Source: a bacterium (lineage in GTDB: Bacteria; Campylobacterota; Campylobacteria; Campylobacterales; Sulfurimonadaceae). Taken from it: a stretch of 64,000 nucleotides of DNA. Below the pieces are notes generated by a model. That model was given only the letters and a program-made list of their open reading frames with translations. It was not told the origin of the DNA and made no database searches. Location: positions 1 through 64,000 of the forward strand of contig JAHJEG010000033.1 in the NCBI GenBank assembly GCA_018825665.1, given 5' to 3'. Positions 11,505-60,169 of the stretch are shown piece after piece; positions within the stretch are counted from its first letter, which is position 1; each line of letters begins with the position of its first letter. A program made the translations under genes and the position numbers.

Positions 11505-13649
11505 TTACCTTTTTTCTACCATATTGTCTAAATGTCTAAACAACTCTTGCGAAGCCTTTTCAGCCCCTTTGAACATCTCAATAATCTCATTTGAATTAGA
11601 ATCGATATCCCGTTCAAGTATGCTTATCACTTTTGAGATATTGGCATGAACTTGTTTATGCGGCTCTATAATATTTTTGTACGAACTGCTTGTTGCAAAG
11701 TTTTCTTTTCCCTCTTTTGCGTACCACTTACCAAGGTTGCATGTCGTATGGTCGCTTAGCTGTATATTCGTATTTCTTTCAAATACGCAGGAATATGCTG
11801 TGTTTTTATAGATCATATGGTCTAGTTTTGCCATATTCGTAAAGAGCTCGTGACCGATTACCGTATTGTCTGATTTGATTTTATGGGCATTGTCGATAAG
11901 CTCAAGCAATATATTTTTAAACTCATCCAATCTTTCCTGGGAAGAGATGGCATGGCTTTCAATCTGCTCACTGTTTTGCGACATGCTTGTAGAGTTTTGT
12001 TTGAGTACGCTTATATTGGCTTCGACCTCGCTTGTAGCCTTTTGCGTTCTCTCGGCAAGTTTTCTGACCTCATCAGCCACCACGGCAAATCCGCGTCCGT
12101 GTTCGCCCGCCCTTGCAGCTTCAATCGCAGCATTTAGAGCCAGAAGATTTGTCTGGTCTGAGATATCTTTGATGAGTGAAATCACATCAAAGATCTCTTC
12201 AACATTCGAATTGAGCTGTTCTGCAGATATCCTTGAATCACTGATCATCTCTGTGATGTTTGAAATAGTGCCTATAATCTCATCGGTTGAGAGGGTTACT
12301 TTGGAGATAACATTTTGCGTATCTTCGTTTAGGGTATTTATCTCATTTACGTTTTCAACATTTTTTTTCATACTGTTGCGAAGGTTTTGGGCATTGTTGA
12401 TGGAACCGCCTATCATCTCATAAGAGAGGGTGAGAGTCAAGAAGTTTTTTTCTATACTTGCTTTTACTTCTCTGGCTGATTCTTCCGCTATATGGGCCTG
12501 CTCCTGTGCATCTATTGCTATAGTTTGAACTTTATCCAAAAACATATTTATGCTTGAGCTTGCCTTTCCGAGTTCATCATTTGAATTCACCGGGAGTCTT
12601 TTTGAGAGGTCTGCATCACCCTGTGCCAATTCTACAACAACATTATCAAGATAGATGATAGGGTCGCTTACGGCTTTTTTAATTATCAGCATCAAAAATA
12701 CAAATATGAACATCTCGATAATAAATACGATCAGCATCTGCTGAAGGAGCGAGCTTTTAGAATGGTCTATCATGCTCTCAACATTGGATATTTTGTTTCC
12801 GATTATCGCATATCCCACGACATCATTGGAGTAATCCAAAATAGGCTCCGATACTATGAAATGCTGATCTGTAACCTGATAGTCCTCACTGCTTGCTATA
12901 TCGATACTGCCGTTGCCAAGAGCTTCTCGTATCTCTTTTAAAAATTCTTTGTCTACCACTTCCTCTTTTACTGCCAGGGTATACTTACCGATTTTTGGAG
13001 CATCCTGGAGTGAAGTTGCCGTTGATAGGTATTTATTGTCCATGACGATAAGCATCTCATAGCCGTTGTTTTTCTTGGCACTTTTGATAATCGAGTTCAG
13101 CCCCTGCATAAACTCAACCGAACCGAAATAGTTTTCATGTTCTATAATAGGTGAAACTCCGCGAAGGACCAGACCTGCACGGCCCAGTTCTATAGCCACA
13201 AAGGGTTTTTTCATAACCTTAACATCCACTATCGTCTTTCTAAAAGAGCTTAGGTCATCACCGTATTTCTCCGGTTTCCAATTTCTTAAAAAACTGCGTG
13301 TATCGGCGTCGTGGACATGTATCTTGATATTATTATATTTTGTGTTGTCTTTAAACTCTTTGGATATTGACGAGAGCCCGTTTATGGCGAGGTCCCTGTC
13401 GTTTTCCATAAGGGATCTGATCACGTTGTAGTTTCTGGATATATTTATGGCATTTGTCAAACCTATATCTTCTTTTGATTTCATCAATTCATTATACGTC
13501 ATACGGATAGATTCTGACTGTGTAGTATATACATCCTTTTTCATCTGACTGATCGAATAAAAATAATTTCCGATTATAACTATGAACCCCACTACGATTG
13601 ATAGAAACAAGGGTATATATATTTTTTTACTGATAGATAAATCTGACAT
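11505..13649 (-). CDS. Methyl-accepting chemotaxis protein with C-terminal CZB domain
   Basis: This 714-residue transmembrane chemoreceptor has a first helix near 10-32, a periplasmic Cache-like sensor (about 35-295), a second helix near 300-325, HAMP, then a cytoplasmic signalling hairpin with the canonical tip [19 protein letters not shown]. The C-terminal 90 residues form a CZB (chemoreceptor zinc-binding) domain: a His in the first helix, Cys in CNLGKWY and two His in [11 protein letters not shown] domains bind zinc and in known cases sense hypochlorite or zinc. The periplasmic domain resembles that of the stand-alone sensor at 56.1-57.2 kb (shared IELGR/IEVGR segment). Its leader TAAGGCCGGC resembles that of the DUF2461 gene. 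Confidence 0.93.
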
Positions 13650-50260: not shown

Positions 50261-52021
50261 CTAACAGCTTCTTGAACCTTTTACGGGACATCCGCAGTCA
50301 TAATCAACCAAAGTAACATTTCCCTTATTGCTTACGTCCACAACTTTTTGTCTTTTGATATAGTCTCTGGTAACATCATATACTGCTCTAATCTTCTCTT
50401 TTTGAAGATTAGTTCCGGCATTTTGCAGGTTACCGCCCCAAGATGAGACTATATAAGTTTTTTCTAGATCAATAGGCTTCCCGCCGATCATAAGCTTGGA
50501 AATCCTTTTCCCTGCCTGGTTTGCAACGGCTATGTCATATGTAACACCGCCAAGACGGCTCATATCACCGCCCTGCTGATAAAGCGGATTGGAATTAAAG
50601 ACATTGTCCGCTATATCTTCCAAAAGCGTTGCTATTTTACTGCCTTTTAATTCAAATGTATAGACATTCGGATAGGTAATTCCGCACATCTCATAGACAT
50701 TATCCATTAAAATGTCATCACCTGCAAGAACCGTAGTTCCCCATCTGTATCCTGGCGTAAAAGAAATATCACATTTCATCTCATCCATGATGGCATCATT
50801 GATAAGCTGATCAAATGTCGAGAAGAAAGTATCTCTTTTATAAAGAGTATTCTTTGTTTTACCCAACACTTCGTTAAATTCTTTTGCATAGGGAGCATAT
50901 AACTCATCTACCAGTTTCACACCAGCAGGATCCGCAGGAATCATATTGGATGCGATTGGAACAAGTTTATACTCATAATCTTTCACTTTGCCGTTTTTAA
51001 TATCTACATCCAAACGGCCAATATATTTACCGTGACTTCCGGCTATTACGATTACTGTACCGTTGATCGTAATCGGCTTTGGTGAAGGGTCATGCGTGTG
51101 ACCGCTTAAGATAAAGTCTATGCCGTGAACCTGACGGGCAACTTCCTGATCAACGCTGAATCCGTCGTGGGATAAAACAACGACACAATCGACTTTGTGT
51201 TCATCTCTTAACTCATTCACATATTCCTGAAGTGTCTCAAGTCTAAGACCAAAACTCCATCCCTGCGTAAACTCTTTAGGATTTGCTGTCGATGTAAACG
51301 GAAAGGACTGTCCGATGATACCAATCTTGGCACCGCCTTTTTCTTCAATTGTATAAGGCTCAAAAATAAGCTCTTCATACTCTTCGGAAAATGGGTCATC
51401 CCCTACAACATTTTGAGAGATGAACTTGGCATCAAGCATCTCGATAAGCTCTTTAACTCTCTCTTTGCCGTAAGTAAATTCCCAGTGTCCGACCATTACA
51501 TCAACGCCCAAATAGTTTTGCGCCTTGACAATCGCTTCACCGCCGCTCTTTAGTGCAACACCGGTACCCTGCCACGTATCGCCGGAGTCCAGGAACAACA
51601 CATTGTCATTTCCTCTCTCTGCTCTTACATGATCAAGGTATGTTTTCATATGGGCAACACCGCCCATTTTACCAAACTTTTTGGCAAGTGTGTCAAAGTC
51701 CATATGCGTATCAAAATAAGCATCAAGTGAGCTTGGTTCCAATCCGTAATGTTTTGCAAACGCTTCACCGCATAAAAAACCTGGTGTTCCAACCAGGTTC
51801 GGAGCAGAAATCAAAGTAGACGGCTCTCTCCAATACAGGGGCTTTATATGTGCATGCAAGTCACACATATGAAGCAATGTAACCTTCCCTTTTGACTTAA
51901 AATCATAAATATCTTTTAAAGATATCTGAGCAGGCGTTTTTGAACTTGCCATACTGCTTGTAGCTGCACCTAATCCAAAAATGGCTGCTATATGCATAAA
52001 GTCTCTTCTAGATATTTCCAT
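50261..52021 (-). CDS. soxB: SoxB thiosulfohydrolase
   Basis: It releases sulfate from the SoxY-bound cysteine S-sulfonate in the periplasm. The 586-residue protein opens with a twin-arginine signal (SRRDFMHIAA). Di-manganese site residues are visible: LLHMCDLHAH near 49, DSGDTWQGTG near 147, GHWEFTYG, VVLSHDG and ILSGHTHD. The 5'-nucleotidase-type C-terminal domain follows. The C-terminus ends in a Cys-rich tail (YDCGCPVKGSRSC) that may be specific to this group. It is last of the soxX-Y-Z-A-B run, 9 bases after soxA. Confidence 0.97.
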   Translation of the reverse strand: MEISRRDFMHIAAIFGLGAATSSMASSKTPAQISLKDIYDFKSKGKVTLLHMCDLHAHIKPLYWREPSTLISAPNLVGTPGFLCGEAFAKHYGLEPSSLDAYFDTHMDFDTLAKKFGKMGGVAHMKTYLDHVRAERGNDNVLFLDSGDTWQGTGVALKSGGEAIVKAQNYLGVDVMVGHWEFTYGKERVKELIEMLDAKFISQNVVGDDPFSEEYEELIFEPYTIEEKGGAKIGIIGQSFPFTSTANPKEFTQGWSFGLRLETLQEYVNELRDEHKVDCVVVLSHDGFSVDQEVARQVHGIDFILSGHTHDPSPKPITINGTVIVIAGSHGKYIGRLDVDIKNGKVKDYEYKLVPIASNMIPADPAGVKLVDELYAPYAKEFNEVLGKTKNTLYKRDTFFSTFDQLINDAIMDEMKCDISFTPGYRWGTTVLAGDDILMDNVYEMCGITYPNVYTFELKGSKIATLLEDIADNVFNSNPLYQQGGDMSRLGGVTYDIAVANQAGKRISKLMIGGKPIDLEKTYIVSSWGGNLQNAGTNLQKEKIRAVYDVTRDYIKRQKVVDVSNKGNVTLVDYDCGCPVKGSRSC

Positions 52022-52030
52022 AATGCATCC

Positions 52031-52798
52031 CTATCTTTTTAAACCGGGAATAGCAATTGCCTGGCCTTTTGATTTATCCGTAACATATACTTCCAGTGCT
52101 ACCATCTCAGGAGATCCCAATGGAATAACATCCAAAAGTGCATTTTTCATACATCCCTGAAAACGGCGCTGGAGTGTTCTTAAAGATGACTTAGTCATTC
52201 TATATGCCGGCCATGTTCCACCCGCATTCTGCGCACCCAAATCCGGTAAAGGCTGTGTTCTAAGGACTGAGCCGATTACATCCGGACTGTGACAGCTCAA
52301 ACATGCCAGACCTCTTCCTCCGCGTTTGGTGTCAAATGTTTTTTGACCCAAGGCATACGCTTCTTTCATATGTTTGTTTGCATTGACATCGATATTAATC
52401 GCTACATCGTTGGCAATTGATTTGGTATATGCCACCATGTCAAACATTTTTCCGTCTTTAAGAGCAAAAGGTTTGTGAGAGTTTTTATGCATCAAAGCCT
52501 GTAAAACCTGATCTATCCCCACAACCATTTTAAACTCTTCGAGATAACGGGGAAAACCGGCTATATAAGCAGGTAAATCTTTTTCACTTACATTAAGAAA
52601 CTTTGCAAGACCCGCATCTCCGCCACAATACTCTTCAAGCAGCTCACTGCCGCTCTCAACCATAATGTCTGCGGGATTGTTGTCTAACATCTCCGCATAC
52701 ATTGCACGGTCTGCATCACTCATCGCAAATTGCTCACCGCCAAAAGAGAGTGATGACAAAAGCGCTATAGACAATGCTATTTTTATACCTGTTTTCAT
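52031..52798 (-). CDS. soxA: SoxA, monohaem cytochrome c subunit of SoxAX
   Basis: With SoxX it oxidatively couples thiosulfate to the SoxY cysteine. The 255-residue protein has a signal peptide (about 1-20) and a single haem motif CLSCH near residue 169, so it is the monohaem type. The active-site Cys ligand is in RRFQGCMKNA near 217. A segment near 53-63 (LEEYCGGDAG) keeps one Cys where dihaem proteins have the other haem. Only 3 bases separate it from soxZ. Confidence 0.95.
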   Translation of the reverse strand: MKTGIKIALSIALLSSLSFGGEQFAMSDADRAMYAEMLDNNPADIMVESGSELLEEYCGGDAGLAKFLNVSEKDLPAYIAGFPRYLEEFKMVVGIDQVLQALMHKNSHKPFALKDGKMFDMVAYTKSIANDVAINIDVNANKHMKEAYALGQKTFDTKRGGRGLACLSCHSPDVIGSVLRTQPLPDLGAQNAGGTWPAYRMTKSSLRTLQRRFQGCMKNALLDVIPLGSPEMVALEVYVTDKSKGQAIAIPGLKR

Positions 52799-52801
52799 CG
52801 A

Positions 52802-53137
52802 TTATCCTTTTGGTTTAATCTTGATACTTTTTTCACTAACTTCGCCAGTGCTTTCAGTATAAGTTACTTTTAGCTCACCTGCACCATCTATTTTCATATA
52901 TGTTGTAAATACCGGATTCGTCGATAATGACTCCCAAACATTCATAGTAGTGATCACTTTACCCTTATAAGTAAATTTAACACTGTTTACATATTCTGCA
53001 GGAACCAATTTTTTTGTTTCCTTATCTTTACGCATACCGGTTTCCATCGGATGCATAACCATAAAACTTACCTTTACAACCTCGCCGTCTTTATATTTTT
53101 TTGGCTTGATCTTGATTAGTGATTTTCTTTTTCCCAT
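52802..53137 (-). CDS. soxZ: SoxZ, carrier-complex subunit
   Basis: This 111-residue protein has the SoxZ beta-sandwich sequence: IKPKKYKDGEVVKVSFMVMHPMETG near the start, FTYKGKVI and VTYTESTGE. It binds SoxY to form the periplasmic carrier. It has no signal peptide and so is exported with SoxY through the Tat route. It follows soxY after 52 bases. Confidence 0.96.
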   Translation of the reverse strand: MGKRKSLIKIKPKKYKDGEVVKVSFMVMHPMETGMRKDKETKKLVPAEYVNSVKFTYKGKVITTMNVWESLSTNPVFTTYMKIDGAGELKVTYTESTGEVSEKSIKIKPKG

Positions 53138-53189: not shown

Positions 53190-53657
53190 TCAACCACATC
53201 CGCCGATTGTCACTTTTACGCTCTGAGCAGCTGTTAAAAATGTTCCGTCACTCATCTCTACGATTGTCGCCACGTCCTGTGTTCCGCCAAGTTTGATACG
53301 CGTTGCAAACATTGCTTTTCCGTTTGCCGGAGTCAAGTGCACTGAAACACAACGTGAGTTAGAGTTCTTCGTTGCAAATATATGGATAGTTTTTACATAA
53401 TCGCTCTCAGTCATAGGAGAATCCACCTCAACAGTTACAGGAACAACAGCTCCATTTTCAGCAATTTCCGGAACTTTCAATTGTACTTTTGAAGATGTTT
53501 TAGCAGGTTTGCCGCCAGTTATTACATCTAATGCCTTTTGATATGAAAACTCATTAGGACCTTTTGGTTTTGCCTCTTCTGCAAAACTCATCGATGGCAT
53601 TACAGCTGTTACAGCGGCAACAGCACCTAACTTTTTAAAAAATTCTCTTCTTTGCAT
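53190..53657 (-). CDS. soxY: SoxY, sulfur-carrying subunit
   Basis: Thiosulfate-derived sulfur is carried on the Cys of the flexible C-terminal GGCG arm, which is intact here (VTIGGCG at the end). A twin-arginine signal (QRREFFKKLGAVAA) directs folded export together with SoxZ. The 155-residue length is typical. It lies 14 bases after soxX. Confidence 0.97.
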   Translation of the reverse strand: MQRREFFKKLGAVAAVTAVMPSMSFAEEAKPKGPNEFSYQKALDVITGGKPAKTSSKVQLKVPEIAENGAVVPVTVEVDSPMTESDYVKTIHIFATKNSNSRCVSVHLTPANGKAMFATRIKLGGTQDVATIVEMSDGTFLTAAQSVKVTIGGCG

Positions 53658-53671
53658 AATCTACTTTCCTT

Positions 53672-54196
53672 TTATTTTGGAGATACAATATATGAAGCTA
53701 TATCACATATCTCTTTTTCATTAAATAATTTTGTTGTCAAATTAACCGTCATATGCGTATCTGCATTGTCTATGCGTGGATCAGCTATTTTTTGATATAC
53801 AAACTGATTATCTCTTACACCTGTTGCCATAAACATATCTTTGTATCCTGTTAGATCAGGACCTATATTTCCGGCACCTTTTGCACCTTCTATATTATGA
53901 CATGCGACACAGTTTCCGTATTGCTTGTATGTTCCATCAGCATTTTTCTTTTTTAAGCCCTCAGGTGTTTTTCCTTTTACTTTTTCCCCATTCAAGTTAT
54001 GGAAAATAAAAGAACCTCTGGCAATCGCTTTTGGATCATTTGTTATACATCCCGTAGGCATCGTATAAACTTTAGCTGGTGCTAACAGATCTTTTTTTAT
54101 TATCTCACTGGCACTCGGGTTTTCAATAACACTGCTGTAATCAGCCGCGAAAAGTGAACCCATTAGAAGCATCGAGAGTGTAAAAGATTTCTTCAT
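53672..54196 (-). CDS. soxX: SoxX, cytochrome c subunit of SoxAX
   Basis: This 174-residue protein has a signal peptide (about 1-18, ending LFAAD) and one haem site CVACH near residue 100, preceded by GNC. GNIGPDLTGY and the late MTVNL segment supply the axial-Met region. It is first of the five-gene sox run, with AGGAGG placed 7 nt before the ATG, indicating strong translation. The 94-base gap upstream holds the likely sox promoter. Confidence 0.94.
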   Translation of the reverse strand: MKKSFTLSMLLMGSLFAADYSSVIENPSASEIIKKDLLAPAKVYTMPTGCITNDPKAIARGSFIFHNLNGEKVKGKTPEGLKKKNADGTYKQYGNCVACHNIEGAKGAGNIGPDLTGYKDMFMATGVRDNQFVYQKIADPRIDNADTHMTVNLTTKLFNEKEICDIASYIVSPK

Positions 54197-54225
54197 TGTA
54201 GTTCCTCCTATTAATTTCAGAGGTA

Positions 54226-54255
54226 AGTATAACTGTGAAGTGTAAAATTAGTATA
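54226..54255 (-). promoter_or_regulatory. Candidate sox promoter/operator region
   Basis: On the transcribed strand two TATACT boxes (54255-54250 and 54231-54226) occur within the direct repeat TTATACTNA, 24 bases apart, 30-60 bases before the soxX ATG. One may be the -10 box; the pair could also be regulator half-sites. No -35 consensus is visible. It lies directly downstream of the histidine kinase gene. Confidence 0.4.
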
Positions 54256-54290
54256 AAATGTATTTCTTATTGGAAAAGAAGTTTGTAATT

Positions 54291-55457
54291 TTAGTTTATA
54301 TCTACAATATCCGCCGGGAATTTATATATAAACGTACTGCCCTGCTTAGGTTTTGACCTTACACTGAGCTCAATATCAAGGGTATCGATAATAGATTTAA
54401 CTATGTTCAAACCTATTCCAAAACCGCCTTTGCTGACATCTTCACGGTAATAACGGCTAAATATTTTATTTGTATCCTCTATGCCGACCCCATAATCTTT
54501 AAAACTCAGATAGCAGCTCTTGTCTTTTATATACAGATCTATCTCGATGCAACTCTCTTCATAAGAATACTTGATAGCATTTGAAATATTGTTGTCAATT
54601 ATTCTCTGCAGCTGCTTTGTATTCATAATAAAATAAATGCCTTTTGTAATATTGCTTTTTAAAGTTATATTCTTCATCAGCGCCACCTCTGAAAAATACT
54701 CCACCCTTTCATTTAAAAACAGGGTCATATCGATTGATTCCTGTTCAAAATGCAATCTGTCATGCTTTATCAGATAATCCATGTCATTATAAATATTTGA
54801 AAGCACCTTTGCCGCAGCCTTCATTCTCTGCATATATTTATTAGACTCATTTTTTCTATTGTACAAATCTATATTGACATTAATGATAGACAGGGGCGTG
54901 TTTATCTCATGCATGGAATCTTTGATAAAATTATCCAGAGTTTCATTCATCTTTTTAAAGGGAGTGGCAAAACTGTTTAAAAAGAAGATACTTAAAATAA
55001 AAACAAGCACCACAATGGAAAACAGGATGAGCATCACTTTTTCATAGACGACTGCAAAAGAGAGCGTATTCTTTACAATTAAATATTCTGCACCGAAATA
55101 TCTGTTTTTTGGCAGCTTGACGATTAAATAGGCATTGTTTGCATCATCTAAATGGTAGCCCTCTTTAAAATGCTCAATATTGGAGCTGATCAAAGAAAAG
55201 ATAGCCTGAAATCTTAAATCATATAGACCAGACTCAAATGTTTTAAATCTCGGATACTCATAGTGTGTTTCATTTTGATTAAACTCCTCCATAGACTTTA
55301 CGATAAGCAGGGATTTTTCTTTTAGAAGAAGCTCATTTTGAATGGAATGTATGTTTTTCATATAGATCAAATAAAAAAACAGCGGCGCCAATAATATAAG
55401 AGTAATCAATGTCGTATAGATGAGCGCATACTTGCCTGCATACGTATTATCGTTCAA
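54291..55457 (-). CDS. Membrane sensor histidine kinase next to the sox cluster
   Basis: This 388-residue kinase has two membrane helices (about 12-32 and 140-165), a short periplasmic region, then HisKA with MHEINTPLSI near 183 and an HATPase domain (NNISNAIKYS, DYGVGI, GGFGIGLNIVKSI). No HAMP or PAS domain is seen. Its start overlaps the response-regulator gene by 11 bases. It is the last gene of a three-gene sensory unit pointing into soxX 94 bases away, making it the best candidate regulator of sox expression. The signal is probably thiosulfate or another sulfur compound, by context only. Confidence 0.88.
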   Translation of the reverse strand: MNDNTYAGKYALIYTTLITLILLAPLFFYLIYMKNIHSIQNELLLKEKSLLIVKSMEEFNQNETHYEYPRFKTFESGLYDLRFQAIFSLISSNIEHFKEGYHLDDANNAYLIVKLPKNRYFGAEYLIVKNTLSFAVVYEKVMLILFSIVVLVFILSIFFLNSFATPFKKMNETLDNFIKDSMHEINTPLSIINVNIDLYNRKNESNKYMQRMKAAAKVLSNIYNDMDYLIKHDRLHFEQESIDMTLFLNERVEYFSEVALMKNITLKSNITKGIYFIMNTKQLQRIIDNNISNAIKYSYEESCIEIDLYIKDKSCYLSFKDYGVGIEDTNKIFSRYYREDVSKGGFGIGLNIVKSIIDTLDIELSVRSKPKQGSTFIYKFPADIVDIN

Positions 55458-56100
55458 TGATATATCCTAGGCCTCTTCTGTTTTGAACCACCCCGTTTGG
55501 AAGTTTTTGACGAAGATTATTTACCTGAACCCTGACTGTGGCAGGCTCCACATACTCACCCCAGACTTCATCCTGAAACATCTCTGTCGAGACAACACAG
55601 TTTTGATGTTTTATAAGAACCTCTAAAATATCTTTTTCCGCCTTTCTCAGTACAATCTCTTTATCGTTCAAACTGAGTCTGCTTTTGGTCATATCGTATG
55701 TGACTTCGCATCCAAGATTGACAATATTTTCATCATCCAGATAAAAACTGGCAAATGCCTGATTGATACGCAGTTCCAACTCTTCGAGGTCAAAAGGCTT
55801 TCGTATATAATCACAGCACCCTCTTTTGTACCCTTCTTTGAGATTTTGTATATCTACCATAGATGTTAAAAAGATGGTCGGTATCTTTTTGTTTTCTTTG
55901 CGCAGATTCTTTAAGAGTTCAAAACCGTTCATTGAGGGGACGTTTACATCAAGCAGCAAAAGATCATATGTCTTATCAAAAATAGCATCATACGCTTCAG
56001 CTCCATCCATAAAAGAGTCAACTTCATAACCAATATCAACCAAAAATTCCTGAATACTTATACGCAGTGAGTATTCATCTTCCAATAACAAAATCTTCAT
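55447..56100 (-). CDS. OmpR/PhoB-family response regulator next to the sox cluster
   Basis: This 217-residue protein has a receiver domain (about 1-120: acidic pair EDE near 7, Asp in LLLLDVNVPSMNG near 52, Lys in IRKPFDLEE) and a winged-helix DNA-binding domain (about 130-217, ending NRRGLGYIIE). It is predicted to bind direct repeats near target promoters. The ATG overlaps the stop of the sensor gene upstream by 4 bases, and its end overlaps the kinase gene, so all three are translated together. Direct repeats before the porin and the TATACT repeats before soxX are possible targets. Confidence 0.92.
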   Translation of the reverse strand: MKILLLEDEYSLRISIQEFLVDIGYEVDSFMDGAEAYDAIFDKTYDLLLLDVNVPSMNGFELLKNLRKENKKIPTIFLTSMVDIQNLKEGYKRGCCDYIRKPFDLEELELRINQAFASFYLDDENIVNLGCEVTYDMTKSRLSLNDKEIVLRKAEKDILEVLIKHQNCVVSTEMFQDEVWGEYVEPATVRVQVNNLRQKLPNGVVQNRRGLGYIIER

Positions 56101-57212
56101 TTAATCTTTCCATCAATCTTTTTAATAATCTTATGCTCCAACATAAGCTGAATCAATTCATCCTTGCTGTAGGCATCTAGTTTTTTATATGCTTCATCAA
56201 AAAACAGCTCTCTGTCTTCCTTGGCAATAATATCTTTTATGTAGAGTAAAGAATCAACACTGTACTTGTCATACATGTTATTTTGATACTGTTCCTCTTT
56301 CACCACATCGTATAAGCTGCTCCTCGTCACATTTACCAAAAAGGATATATCATCCTCCGGATCTTTGAAATAGTCCAAATATTTTTCCGGCAATACAAAG
56401 ACAAAAGCACCTATTGTCTGCCCTTCACCGTTATTCATCGTCTCGTAAAATATATACTTGTTATCCACATATAAAATACGGTCTACCTTTAAGGTCTTAA
56501 AATCAATCTTATTGAGAGTCTGTATATGATTGAAATTATAATTTCTATTTGAGACAATATATCTGTCTACCGTCAAATTTTCCTGCATCAAGATGGCTGT
56601 ATCAAAATACTTATCCTCAAGCATAACATACAAGTCTATCCCCTGCTTGGAAAAATACTTTGTGATAGACTCAAAAAAATCGATGACTTCTATAAAGCCT
56701 AAAAAAACACCCTCTTTATATATAGGAACAGTTGCCTTGATTCCCAAGCGTCTTCCCACTTCTATGGAAGTCCTTGGAGTTGTATGGGTTTTAAAATAAT
56801 CAAGATCGGTCCTGTAATCTTCCAGCGGCATTCCGGCATAGACATTATCCCAGCTTCTGGCAAAAATATTATACTCACTTGTAATGATTTGCGTTCTGAT
56901 ATATCGGTTTGTATTCGTTTTAATGCTAAGCATGATGTCCGAGAGGATCTTATACCCCAAGTCTTCGTTGTCATTTTCCAGAGCATTGACCAGACCCTCG
57001 TTTTTTGACAGGACAACAGCTATTTCAAGAGCATTCATCTGCTCATTTTTAAGCTGACTTTCCAAAGACAAAGTACACTGGTCCAAGATGTATTCGATTT
57101 TCTGATCATTGACCTGATATTTCAGATATCCGATAACGACCATAATAGTTATCACTATAAAAACAAACACATATAATAGACTTCTAAGCATATTCAATAA
57201 AACCGATACCAA
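56097..57212 (-). CDS. Membrane-anchored periplasmic Cache-type sensor without an output domain
   Basis: This 371-residue protein has one N-terminal membrane helix (about 9-28) followed by a double-Cache-like periplasmic region (about 35-290) and about 80 C-terminal residues that are mainly helical. There is no second clear membrane helix and no kinase, cyclase or chemoreceptor output. The sensor resembles the chemoreceptor at 11.5 kb (shared SIEVGR/AIELGR and later LEDKY/MDNKY segments). It is first of the three-gene unit and likely acts as a separate ligand-binding partner of the kinase at 54.3 kb. A truncated chemoreceptor is an alternative, but the overlapping gene order argues for a functional unit. 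Confidence 0.8.
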   Translation of the reverse strand: MVSVLLNMLRSLLYVFVFIVITIMVVIGYLKYQVNDQKIEYILDQCTLSLESQLKNEQMNALEIAVVLSKNEGLVNALENDNEDLGYKILSDIMLSIKTNTNRYIRTQIITSEYNIFARSWDNVYAGMPLEDYRTDLDYFKTHTTPRTSIEVGRRLGIKATVPIYKEGVFLGFIEVIDFFESITKYFSKQGIDLYVMLEDKYFDTAILMQENLTVDRYIVSNRNYNFNHIQTLNKIDFKTLKVDRILYVDNKYIFYETMNNGEGQTIGAFVFVLPEKYLDYFKDPEDDISFLVNVTRSSLYDVVKEEQYQNNMYDKYSVDSLLYIKDIIAKEDRELFFDEAYKKLDAYSKDELIQLMLEHKIIKKIDGKIK

Positions 57213-57355
57213 TAATTTTTTAGATTATATCAAGAAAATAAGATGTCACGTTGAAATTTTTAGTATTATCGTAATAAATTATATAATTCAAATAAAATTA
57301 ATTATTTTACTCTAAAATTAGCTCACTTAAAATATTCGGATTGGAGGAGCCTGTT

Positions 57356-57577
57356 ATGATAGACTTAGAAACTGAGATATGCATATGTAACGGTTTGAGC
57401 GTAAGAGATATTGCTGAATGCATCAAAGAAAACAAGCTTACGACTATGCAGGAGATACTTGAAAATGAGATCTGTCCCATGGGGGACAAGTGCGAAGCTT
57501 GTCAGGATGAAGGATTTAACAATGACGGGCTCAATATACCAATGGTTCTTTCTCTGGTGCAAAAAAAACTAATTTAA
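57356..57577 (+). CDS. BFD-like [2Fe-2S]-binding small protein
   Basis: This 73-residue protein has CICNGLSVRDI near the N-terminus and CPMGDKCEAC in the second half. The Cys pattern resembles bacterioferritin-associated ferredoxin-like domains that bind a [2Fe-2S] cluster, with one extra Cys. The track starts at a TTG, but GGAGGAG there is the ribosome site for the ATG at 57356. It is divergent from the sensor gene and its end overlaps the convergent kinase gene by 9 bases. It may deliver electrons or report iron status; no partner is adjacent. Confidence 0.72.
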   Translation: MIDLETEICICNGLSVRDIAECIKENKLTTMQEILENEICPMGDKCEACQDEGFNNDGLNIPMVLSLVQKKLI

Positions 57578-60169
57578 ATCTCTGATCTCTATCATAAATG
57601 TAGAACCTCTGGGTGATGTTTCTACTTTTATGTCCCCTCCAAACTGTTTTTGGATAATCATCTGACTCATATAAAGACCTAATCCCGTGCCATTTTTACC
57701 CTTGGTGCTGAAATAGGGTTCAAATAATTTTTTCATATTCTCTTCGCTTATCCCAGAAGCATTGTCCTCAACACATATACAAAACCTGTCTTTATAAGAT
57801 TTTACATAGAGGCTTATAGCTTTGTTTTCCCTATCTACCTCTTCAAACGCATCAATGGCATTGTTTATAAGGTTGAGTATCACCTGAATCAACTCATTCA
57901 TATATACCTGTATATATATTTCCCGCTCTTTTTTTATATGAATACTTATATTTGTAGCGTTTATTTTAGGTAATGTGAAATTCACTACCTTTTGTAAAAG
58001 TTCATGTATCTCTACTTTTGTAGATTTTTTATCGGGATGAAAATATGTCTGAAAATCGTCTATGGTGTTTGAGAGATAAATGATTGAATCGCTGATCTCA
58101 CTTAAAGTTTTATCAGTTTTTTCTTCATCGATTGCACCTCCCATTAACTTTGTCAGCTGCAAATTAGAGATTTGAAGAGTGATATTTGAGAGTGGCTGTC
58201 TCCACTGATGAGCAATCATACTTATCATCTCGCCCATAACGGCCTGCTTCGACTGAGCCGTAAGTATTTTATCTTTTTGAATCAGTTCCTGCACTTTTTC
58301 CGCAACGGTAAGCTCTAAAGATTCGTTCAGTTCTTTGAGTTCGTGCGTTTTTATCTTAACTTCGCTTGCCAGTTTTGCGTTAAAAGAGCTCAGCTTTCTC
58401 TGATGATATGCCATCACGCCCACTAAAAAACTTACAGCTATCAAAATCTTCCAAACTAAACTGTAATCTGTTTCTGAATGATATCTTGTTATCATCCAGC
58501 TCTTGATTATACTGTCTATCTTCTGCGGGGGTATGGCATCGAGCGATTTTTGTATTATATCTGCGAGAACAGTCTCATCCTTAAGAATGCCTATGCTCCC
58601 TTTTATCTTATTCTCTTTAGAGATAAATCCGTTGATTTTTAATTTTCCGTATCCATACTGTTCTACAAGATAATCGGCAGATTCATTCAGAGAGAGGGCC
58701 GCATATGCATTCCCATCCAAAACATTTTTCATCATCCTGTTAGGGTCTCTTTGGACTGTTATATTTAATTTCGGATGGCTCTTCAAAATATGTTCTTTAA
58801 AAATTTGAGACTGAACGACAAGAATGACATCTTCCAATATACTTATGTCTTGGACAAAAGACTTATCCAGTTTTGTAATAAGCGTAAAATAGCTCTCGAT
58901 AAAAGGTCTGGTATGAATAAGCAGCTCTTTATTACTGTTTGTAACGTTTACGGATACGATTTGACATGTTTTATTAATGACATTTTTTCTCAGTTCTTCA
59001 ACGGACGAAGATTCTATCGCTACAAATTTAAGACCCGATTTTTTGGATATGAGGCTGTATATGTCAGCCATAATGCCCGCTTGAGCATTGGATGCATATC
59101 CGTCAATTGGAAATATATTTGGTTGGACACATACTTTTATCGGTTTGGTGGTATTGATATAGTGAAACTCATTAAGAGTAAAATCTATCTTGGAATTTCC
59201 CGGTGTGAATAAAAAATCATCTAAATAGATTGTGTCATTTATCTTATAATACATCTTCAAAAGTTCGCACTGCTTGAGTAAAAAACTTTTATCCATCGAA
59301 CCTATGTCATAAATTTTTGGAAGGATGAGTTTTTCTATTTCTCTGGCTTCATTTTTTAAACTGTCTATGGATATATTCTTTGAATATTTGTCATAGATGA
59401 GCTTTACTGTTTCATCCTTGTGCCTCAGTGCATATTCCCATCCTTTTTTAGTGGCATCCCTAAATAGCTTTACTCTGTCTGGGTTATTTTTAACTTCATC
59501 CTTGGAAGTGAACAGCTCAAGCTGTAGATTGAACATTCCGAGTTCGCTTGGATTGATAACATTATATTTTACGCCCATTTTATCAAGTTTATACGGCTGG
59601 TCAGAGATAAATGCCGTCATAGCATCTACATTTTTATTTACAAAATCTTTTAAATCATATGTATGCTTGACCAGTTTCAACTGGTCTGAATTTACACCGT
59701 ATTCATCAAACAGATATTTAAAGTTCAGATTAAAATCTTCTCTGCCGTTTGCCATGATTGTTTTGCCCAACAAGTCTTTTGGAAACTTTATATCGGTTGA
59801 GGTGATTAACACCAATGCAGATCTTTTAAAATAGGATGCGACAAGCTTTATGGACCTGTCTTGCAAATACTCTACTAAAATATTTGAATTATACACACCA
59901 AACGTAGAGCGCCCGCTGACTACTTCATCAACAATATCTGTGCCAAACTCATATTCTTTTAATTCAACATCTAAACCGACATCCTCATAAAAACCTTGCT
60001 CTTTGGCTGCGATAAAACCTGCATACTGAAACTGATACTTCCAATGAAGCTGAACCGATACCTTCTCAGGCTTTTTACTTTCTTCAATACTATGGAATCT
60101 CTTATAATCATCCTCAAGCGCTGATGCACTATTAATCAAAAGCAATACGAGGAGAATCAGATTTTTCAT
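57569..60169 (-). CDS. Sensor histidine kinase with NMT1/THI5-like and SBP3-type periplasmic domains
   Basis: This 866-residue protein has a signal/membrane segment (about 1-17), an NMT1/THI5-like binding domain (about 38-310, VQLHWKYQFQYAGFIAAKEQGFY), a second solute-binding domain of the SBP_bac_3 type (about 345-565), a membrane helix (about 575-595), a coiled coil, and a kinase core with IAHQWRQP and GTGLGLYMSQMI. No receiver is attached. NMT1/THI5 folds bind pyrimidine thiamine precursors and related small molecules. It follows a nucleoside deoxyribosyltransferase gene by 1 base, which points to a nucleobase- or nucleoside-like ligand; that is inference. The ATP-binding core resembles those at 16.8 and 63.2 kb. 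Confidence 0.88.
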   Translation of the reverse strand: MKNLILLVLLLINSASALEDDYKRFHSIEESKKPEKVSVQLHWKYQFQYAGFIAAKEQGFYEDVGLDVELKEYEFGTDIVDEVVSGRSTFGVYNSNILVEYLQDRSIKLVASYFKRSALVLITSTDIKFPKDLLGKTIMANGREDFNLNFKYLFDEYGVNSDQLKLVKHTYDLKDFVNKNVDAMTAFISDQPYKLDKMGVKYNVINPSELGMFNLQLELFTSKDEVKNNPDRVKLFRDATKKGWEYALRHKDETVKLIYDKYSKNISIDSLKNEAREIEKLILPKIYDIGSMDKSFLLKQCELLKMYYKINDTIYLDDFLFTPGNSKIDFTLNEFHYINTTKPIKVCVQPNIFPIDGYASNAQAGIMADIYSLISKKSGLKFVAIESSSVEELRKNVINKTCQIVSVNVTNSNKELLIHTRPFIESYFTLITKLDKSFVQDISILEDVILVVQSQIFKEHILKSHPKLNITVQRDPNRMMKNVLDGNAYAALSLNESADYLVEQYGYGKLKINGFISKENKIKGSIGILKDETVLADIIQKSLDAIPPQKIDSIIKSWMITRYHSETDYSLVWKILIAVSFLVGVMAYHQRKLSSFNAKLASEVKIKTHELKELNESLELTVAEKVQELIQKDKILTAQSKQAVMGEMISMIAHQWRQPLSNITLQISNLQLTKLMGGAIDEEKTDKTLSEISDSIIYLSNTIDDFQTYFHPDKKSTKVEIHELLQKVVNFTLPKINATNISIHIKKEREIYIQVYMNELIQVILNLINNAIDAFEEVDRENKAISLYVKSYKDRFCICVEDNASGISEENMKKLFEPYFSTKGKNGTGLGLYMSQMIIQKQFGGDIKVETSPRGSTFMIEIRDLN

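Follow-up and report, generated by a model that had tools for sequence, protein, structure and literature searches.

The DNA analysed here, a window of 64,000 nucleotides from a bacterium of the family Sulfurimonadaceae (contig JAHJEG010000033.1 of assembly GCA_018825665.1), carries next to the thiosulfate-oxidation genes soxXYZAB a group of three overlapping genes, which encode a Cache sensor without output domain, a response regulator (RR) of the OmpR/PhoB family and a histidine kinase (HK). This trio probably constitutes a three-component system dedicated to thiosulfate metabolism, in which the signal would run from the Cache receptor to the kinase, from the kinase to the regulator and from the regulator to soxXYZAB. 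In the mechanism proposed, the membrane-anchored, periplasmic double-Cache protein would bind thiosulfate or a close sulfur oxyanion such as tetrathionate and relay the signal, in the membrane or in the periplasm, to the co-encoded kinase. The kinase, by analogy with its family, would phosphorylate the OmpR/PhoB-type regulator, and comparative genomics strongly supports the prediction that the latter binds TTTACA-N5-TTTACA, which replaces the -35 box of soxX, and activates soxXYZAB as PhoB does. The sox-linked trio is one branch of a phylum-wide family, and its tsdA, phsABC and multihaem branches seem to rely on sites of this type as well. Thiosulfate is favoured as ligand because Sox, TsdA and Phs all have it as a substrate; the Cache protein would act through the kinase, because both are co-encoded and the kinase's own sensory part is small.

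The open reading frames (ORFs) of the window give the order sensor, regulator, kinase and then soxX, all on the minus strand. The Cache-only sensor gene (56097..57191) encodes 364 amino acids (aa) from the ATG at 57191, comprising one transmembrane (TM) anchor, a periplasmic double Cache and no output domain; this ATG, and not the TTG at 57212, 21 bases further out, is probably the start, because the aligned homologues begin there. The regulator gene (55447..56100, 217 aa) overlaps the sensor gene by 4 bases, while the HK gene (54291..55457, 388 aa) starts with a TTG 11 bases inside the regulator gene, and both overlaps are nearly invariant among relatives. A 94-base gap separates the end of the kinase gene from soxX (53672..54196), the first gene of the operon. 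Thus, the overlapping arrangement described in the original prediction, with an output-less Cache sensor, an OmpR-type regulator and a small-periplasm kinase 94 bases from soxX, is confirmed by ORFs and domain matches, and it is not due to chance, since dozens of genomes show the same block in synteny.

The soxX leaders share the tandem TTTACA-N5-TTTACA over the -35 region, followed by a -10 box and then by a Shine-Dalgarno sequence. In the window, the predicted operator reads TTTATA-CTAAT-TTTACA (54241..54257, minus strand), a tandem of 11-bp period over the soxX -35 region which is conserved in relatives, and the predicted -10 box, TATACT (54226..54231, minus strand), follows after 9 nt. Of 55 non-redundant soxX promoters, 49 contain the strict hexamer pattern, as against 0.3% of shuffles, and 40 of these 49 have TAnnnT exactly 9 nt after the site. 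Among the phsA promoters 11 of 15 contain the pattern, all 11 with the same 9-nt spacing, and in the controls it was found in 4 of 232; the unfiltered control matches may be true targets, since every one belongs to an MBL or DUF302 gene in the sox cluster. Moreover, an unbiased test, in which no sequence is assumed and the best 8-mer repeat with at least 7 of 8 equal positions is taken from the 90 bases upstream, revealed 11-bp repeats in 82% of soxX, 87% of phsA and 30% of tsdA promoters vs 6% of the 232 controls, with other repeat distances mostly near background. In all three enzyme classes the repeats cover the -35 region. The tsdA promoters keep the 11-bp period with other units (GTTACA, TTGACG and GTAAC types), and in the multihaem branch TTTACACTATTTTTACA stands before a cytochrome gene, the same operator type occurring in loci L070 and L233.

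Where PhoB-type activators bind, tandem repeats spaced at 11 bp take the place of the -35 box, and the soxX site has this very layout. Furthermore, an OmpR-family regulator of Sulfurospirillum has been shown by electrophoretic mobility shift assay to bind CTATA units that lie over the -35 box and are likewise repeated every 11 bp (PMC7755780). On the strength of this layout and this precedent, the predicted control of soxX by the regulator through the tandem site is strongly supported, and from the position of the site we infer activation rather than repression of soxXYZAB. Exact matches to the operator number five in the whole genome, and only the one at soxX precedes a correctly oriented gene; the other four, having no such gene behind them, were rejected as operators. 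There was likewise no sign that the trio regulates itself by way of this site, the sensor's own leader being without repeat (4% at 11 bp), and the regulator site formerly expected at the porin leader did not materialise, the strict tandem being present in 0 of 73 porin upstream regions.

The distribution of the trio points in the same direction. The sensor, SoxB and the kinase were queried in 199 relatives, and presence and absence were tabulated for the 119 genomes of Sulfurimonas. In these, soxB and the class-1 kinase occur together in 44 genomes, soxB only in 2, the kinase only in 3 and neither in 70 (Fisher p 1.8e-26); in the two genomes with soxB only (loci L083 and L085) contig ends lie next to sox. 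Within the genus sox is patchy and the trio tracks its presence. Conservation beside sox in other Campylobacterota, an expectation that accompanied the original prediction, was found with the same order across several families: the succession sensor-regulator-kinase-soxXYZAB is shared by Sulfurimonas, Sulfuricurvum, Hydrogenimonas and Nitratiruptor and by members of several further families.

Such an association could also reflect gene-order inertia, i.e., a two-component system of general function might merely accompany sulfur genes over which it has no control, and it is true that the Sulfurimonas genomes are related and their operons conserved. This explanation is, however, very improbable, as trios of the same type lie by three unrelated enzyme systems in differing orientations, and the operator sits at the enzyme promoter and remains there when the trio moves. 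Where the trio is away from sox, on another contig and with other neighbours (L113 and L251, taken to be two places in one genome), the site is still found at soxX, and the same holds for loci with intervening genes or an inverted arrangement (L057, L058, L074 and L146). The operator is also absent from the control promoters, the four matches mentioned above apart, and from sox clusters without trio: 13 clusters of a second type (L252-L264; SoxB about 41% identical) have neither the trio nor the operator site. Taken together, the co-occurrence with soxB, the synteny and a conserved soxX operator which persists when the trio is elsewhere speak for a regulator dedicated to the sox operon, as had been supposed.

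The family extends beyond sox. In a survey of the phylum, the sensors of a more distant branch were searched in 397 genomes and their neighbourhoods read; the trio loci were gathered by sensor similarity alone, so that the enzyme neighbours were not selected for, and removal of redundancy left 152 trios. Their neighbours are sox (77), tsdA for thiosulfate dehydrogenase (38), phsA for thiosulfate reductase (14), multihaem cytochromes (6) or contig ends (8), with none of these in the remaining 9. The best solved relatives of the dihaem cytochrome of the tsdA class are TsdA structures (4wq7 and 4v2k; E 1e-38 to 1e-47), and the position of the trio with respect to tsdA varies by genome, being upstream, divergent or downstream. 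In the phsA class (L214-L229) the regulator-kinase pair ends the phsABC operon and the Cache-only gene lies convergent behind it; the large subunit was identified as PhsA by NCBIfam scores of 1163 and 1107 bits (cut-off 694) and also by its match to 2vpw, and these trios belong mostly to one family, taken to include Campylobacter. Five of the nine trios without such neighbours represent a second, paralogous trio of Sulfurimonas by DsrE-like and porin-like genes (L063, L064, L065 at 12020-13111, L067 and L068), which probably, to judge from its sensor sequences, responds to another ligand. In L069, L070, L071, L073 and L233, the operon next to the trio encodes multihaem cytochromes with paired CXXCH motifs, together with peptidylprolyl isomerases and beta-propeller proteins. 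The original prediction is upheld for the most part, with the porin leader rejected and with thiosulfate as ligand and the step from sensor to kinase as its putative points. The same trio type beside TsdA and PhsA argues for thiosulfate, or for a related sulfur oxyanion, through guilt by association, and the trio is not confined to sox.

The same neighbourhoods bear on the nature of the signal. It is possible, though we hold it to be the less probable case, that the system does control these enzymes and that its ligand is tetrathionate, sulfite, polysulfide or a shared redox signal instead of thiosulfate. TsdA interconverts thiosulfate and tetrathionate, and the Phs/Psr enzymes also handle polysulfide, which counts in favour of another ligand, as does the occurrence of the trio by multihaem cytochromes and DsrE-like proteins. 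Nevertheless, only thiosulfate is a substrate of all three enzyme systems, and in the DsrE/porin branch, which is without these enzymes, E144, G146 and K152 are mostly gone from the sensors, as would be expected on a change of ligand.

As regards the proteins themselves, the sensor matches dCache_3 (PF14827) with 43 bits, above the cut-off of 25.7, and no output domain was found in it by domain search. It has a single N-terminal TM segment (residues 5-23); a second one was considered and dismissed, since a looser hydropathy threshold suggests none that is real. The AlphaFold2 model is a confident double Cache (mean pLDDT 84.3), whose best Foldseek matches are the dCache domains of DctB and vpHK1S, while direct sequence search returned no matching solved structures. 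In the distal Cache module, R112, R127 and K/R152 are invariant in the sox-, tsdA- and phsA-class sensors. Sox-linked sensors also possess a C-terminal tail, helical and about 90 residues long (about 270-364; 56097-56386 in the window), that ends in a conserved GKIK-like motif and is absent from tsdA- and phsA-linked sensors.

The regulator is composed of a receiver followed by a winged helix, as the OmpR/PhoB family requires (Response_reg, PF00072, 89.5 bits; Trans_reg_C, PF00486, 51.1 bits; both above cut-off), and is not of the ArsR type, whose members carry a cysteine pair. In the kinase, HisKA (PF00512, 28.1 bits) and HATPase_c (PF02518, 69.6 bits) were identified, and the phospho-acceptor H183, within a HEINTPL box, is invariant across 43 homologues. 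Its two TM segments (about residues 13-31 and 141-159) enclose some 100 periplasmic residues, which the structure model shows as a small, beta-rich part. Domain search detected no HAMP domain in the kinase, and no PhnD-like sensor domain, as in ThsSR and TtrSR, in either kinase or sensor.

Several observations weigh against a dedicated thiosulfate system with a separate receptor. The tsdA sites are more variable, the strict pattern being found in 6 of 30, and nine trios with enough flank have none of sox, tsdA and phsA. The conserved basic pocket residues represent weak evidence for a ligand, because to some extent they may be a general trait of dCache_3: four other dCache_3 proteins likewise often have R127 and a basic residue at position 152. 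The accessible literature yielded no experiment on ligands, phosphotransfer or DNA binding with the trio proteins. Sensor-kinase coevolution (mean-field direct coupling analysis, 154 paired trios, Meff 84) gave no enrichment at the periplasmic part of the kinase, a result that says nothing on sensor-kinase contact because the regulator-kinase positive control failed as well. Finally, sensing could reside in the periplasmic region of the kinase itself.

In its full form, this last objection holds that the kinase senses alone by its domain of about 100 residues, and that the Cache protein only modulates or serves another pathway. The intact, beta-rich periplasmic region is in its favour, as are the missing coupling signal and the phsA-class sensor gene, which is convergent to the regulator-kinase pair and outside its operon. 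We nevertheless regard sensing by the kinase alone as unlikely. The 4-base overlap between sensor and regulator genes is kept almost everywhere in the sox and tsdA classes, and among the fetched regulator-kinase pairs of this type just three have no adjacent sensor, though the loci were collected by sensor similarity. In addition, of six related long kinases that were scanned and have no such sensor beside them, five contain a fused sCache_2 domain, and none of the ten fetched loci with these kinases lies beside Sox, TsdA or Phs enzymes.

Several known systems can be compared with the trio. ThsS/ThsR of Shewanella halifaxensis is a two-component thiosulfate sensor encoded beside phsAB-psrC (PMC5408782); like the trio, it consists of an HK and an RR next to a thiosulfate enzyme, and it activates the neighbouring promoter on thiosulfate, but its PhnD-like domain is fused to the ThsS kinase, whereas the trio has a separate dCache_3 protein as candidate sensor. 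RsrS/RsrR of Acidithiobacillus caldus, which controls tetH-doxDA (PMC5093147), is likewise an EnvZ/OmpR-like pair governing a thiosulfate/tetrathionate operon; it differs in having two components, a 19-bp inverted-repeat operator and no Cache partner. Thus, in the known ThsSR, TtrSR and RsrSR systems the sensor domain is within the kinase, unlike in the trio. In alphaproteobacteria, ArsR-type repressors (SoxR/sHdrR), with SoxS and SoxT, also place the sox operon under local control by sulfur availability (PMC11582611, PMC12423496), although these repressors are cytoplasmic one-component proteins for sulfane sulfur, while the trio would be a membrane phosphorelay with predicted activation. That the trio is distinct from SoxR/SoxS, as first suggested, is borne out by the receiver and winged helix of its regulator, encoded in the block directly adjoining the sox operon.

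With PhoR/PhoB the trio shares a PhoB-family regulator and tandem repeats of 11-bp period replacing the -35 box, but repeat sequence and signal are different and a third, separate sensor protein is added. The tetrachloroethene (PCE) regulator RR2 (PceP) of Sulfurospirillum comes from the same phylum and is also an OmpR-family protein with an 11-bp period, its repeat sequence and operon being different (PMC7755780). A separate extracytoplasmic protein has been proposed to feed the kinase in QseG-QseE-QseF (PMC12691602) and HbpS-SenS-SenR (PMC4991794); the accessory partner outside the kinase is a lipoprotein of the outer membrane in the former and a secreted protein that binds haem in the latter, whereas that of the trio is an inner-membrane-anchored double Cache. 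The three-component layout itself is seen here as a separate sensor gene co-encoded with an HK-RR pair, with overlaps and order conserved. It had been regarded as unusual, but is common in Campylobacterota and no peculiarity of this locus; in the genome of Arcobacter butzleri, three HK-RR pairs have been described as accompanied by one more gene for a sensor or regulator (PMC2147049).

Thiosulfate oxidation through Sox by Sulfurimonas, Sulfuricurvum and their relatives is important at vents and redoxclines and in sediments. According to a review (PMC6682613), little is known of metabolic regulation in the free-living members of the phylum. Sulfurovum indicum has more soxXYZAB transcript when growing on thiosulfate than when growing on elemental sulfur (PMC10045233). 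For such regulation the locus supplies a named candidate regulator, an operator predicted to the base and a predicted receptor. Separate sensors of kinases are already known, and, as far as the open-access literature shows, a Cache-based, phylum-wide family tied to three thiosulfate enzymes by operator type is undescribed; no published report of the trio was found in that literature, subscription papers being outside its coverage. A wider proposal, which we find evenly balanced between being right and wrong, is that obligately split receptors exist throughout the Campylobacterota, probably also in species of the Campylobacter family. In these, sulfur oxyanions would be sensed jointly by a free double-Cache protein and a minimal kinase, and one regulator/operator type would govern Sox, TsdA and Phs. 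A single regulator family would then link the oxidative (Sox, TsdA) and the reductive (Phs) side of thiosulfate metabolism, and the dCache receptors might provide a new type of thiosulfate biosensor, unlike ThsS.

The sox genes of the window, all on the minus strand, were identified by matches above the NCBIfam cut-offs (given after the scores): soxX (TIGR04485, 81.9 bits vs 61) is followed by soxY (53190..53657; TIGR04488, 168.3 vs 125), soxZ (52802..53137; TIGR04490, 103 vs 76), soxA (52031..52798; TIGR04484, 197.1 vs 110) and soxB (50261..52021; TIGR04486, 798.7 vs 550). A SoxC-like protein was not accepted as evidence of soxCD in this genome; being the sole match, below cut-off and beside a small cytochrome, it may be a sulfite dehydrogenase.

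On the other side of the trio, positions 57569-60169 encode a kinase of 866 aa, in which an NMT1/THI5-like solute-binding domain is fused to HisKA/HATPase. This neighbour stays near the trio in several relatives, with DsbD-like and small ferredoxin-like genes in between. In the window, a small divergent ORF (57341-57577), with a score under the Pfam cut-off, resembles the BFD [2Fe-2S] domain and is conserved close to the trio in many Sulfurimonas.

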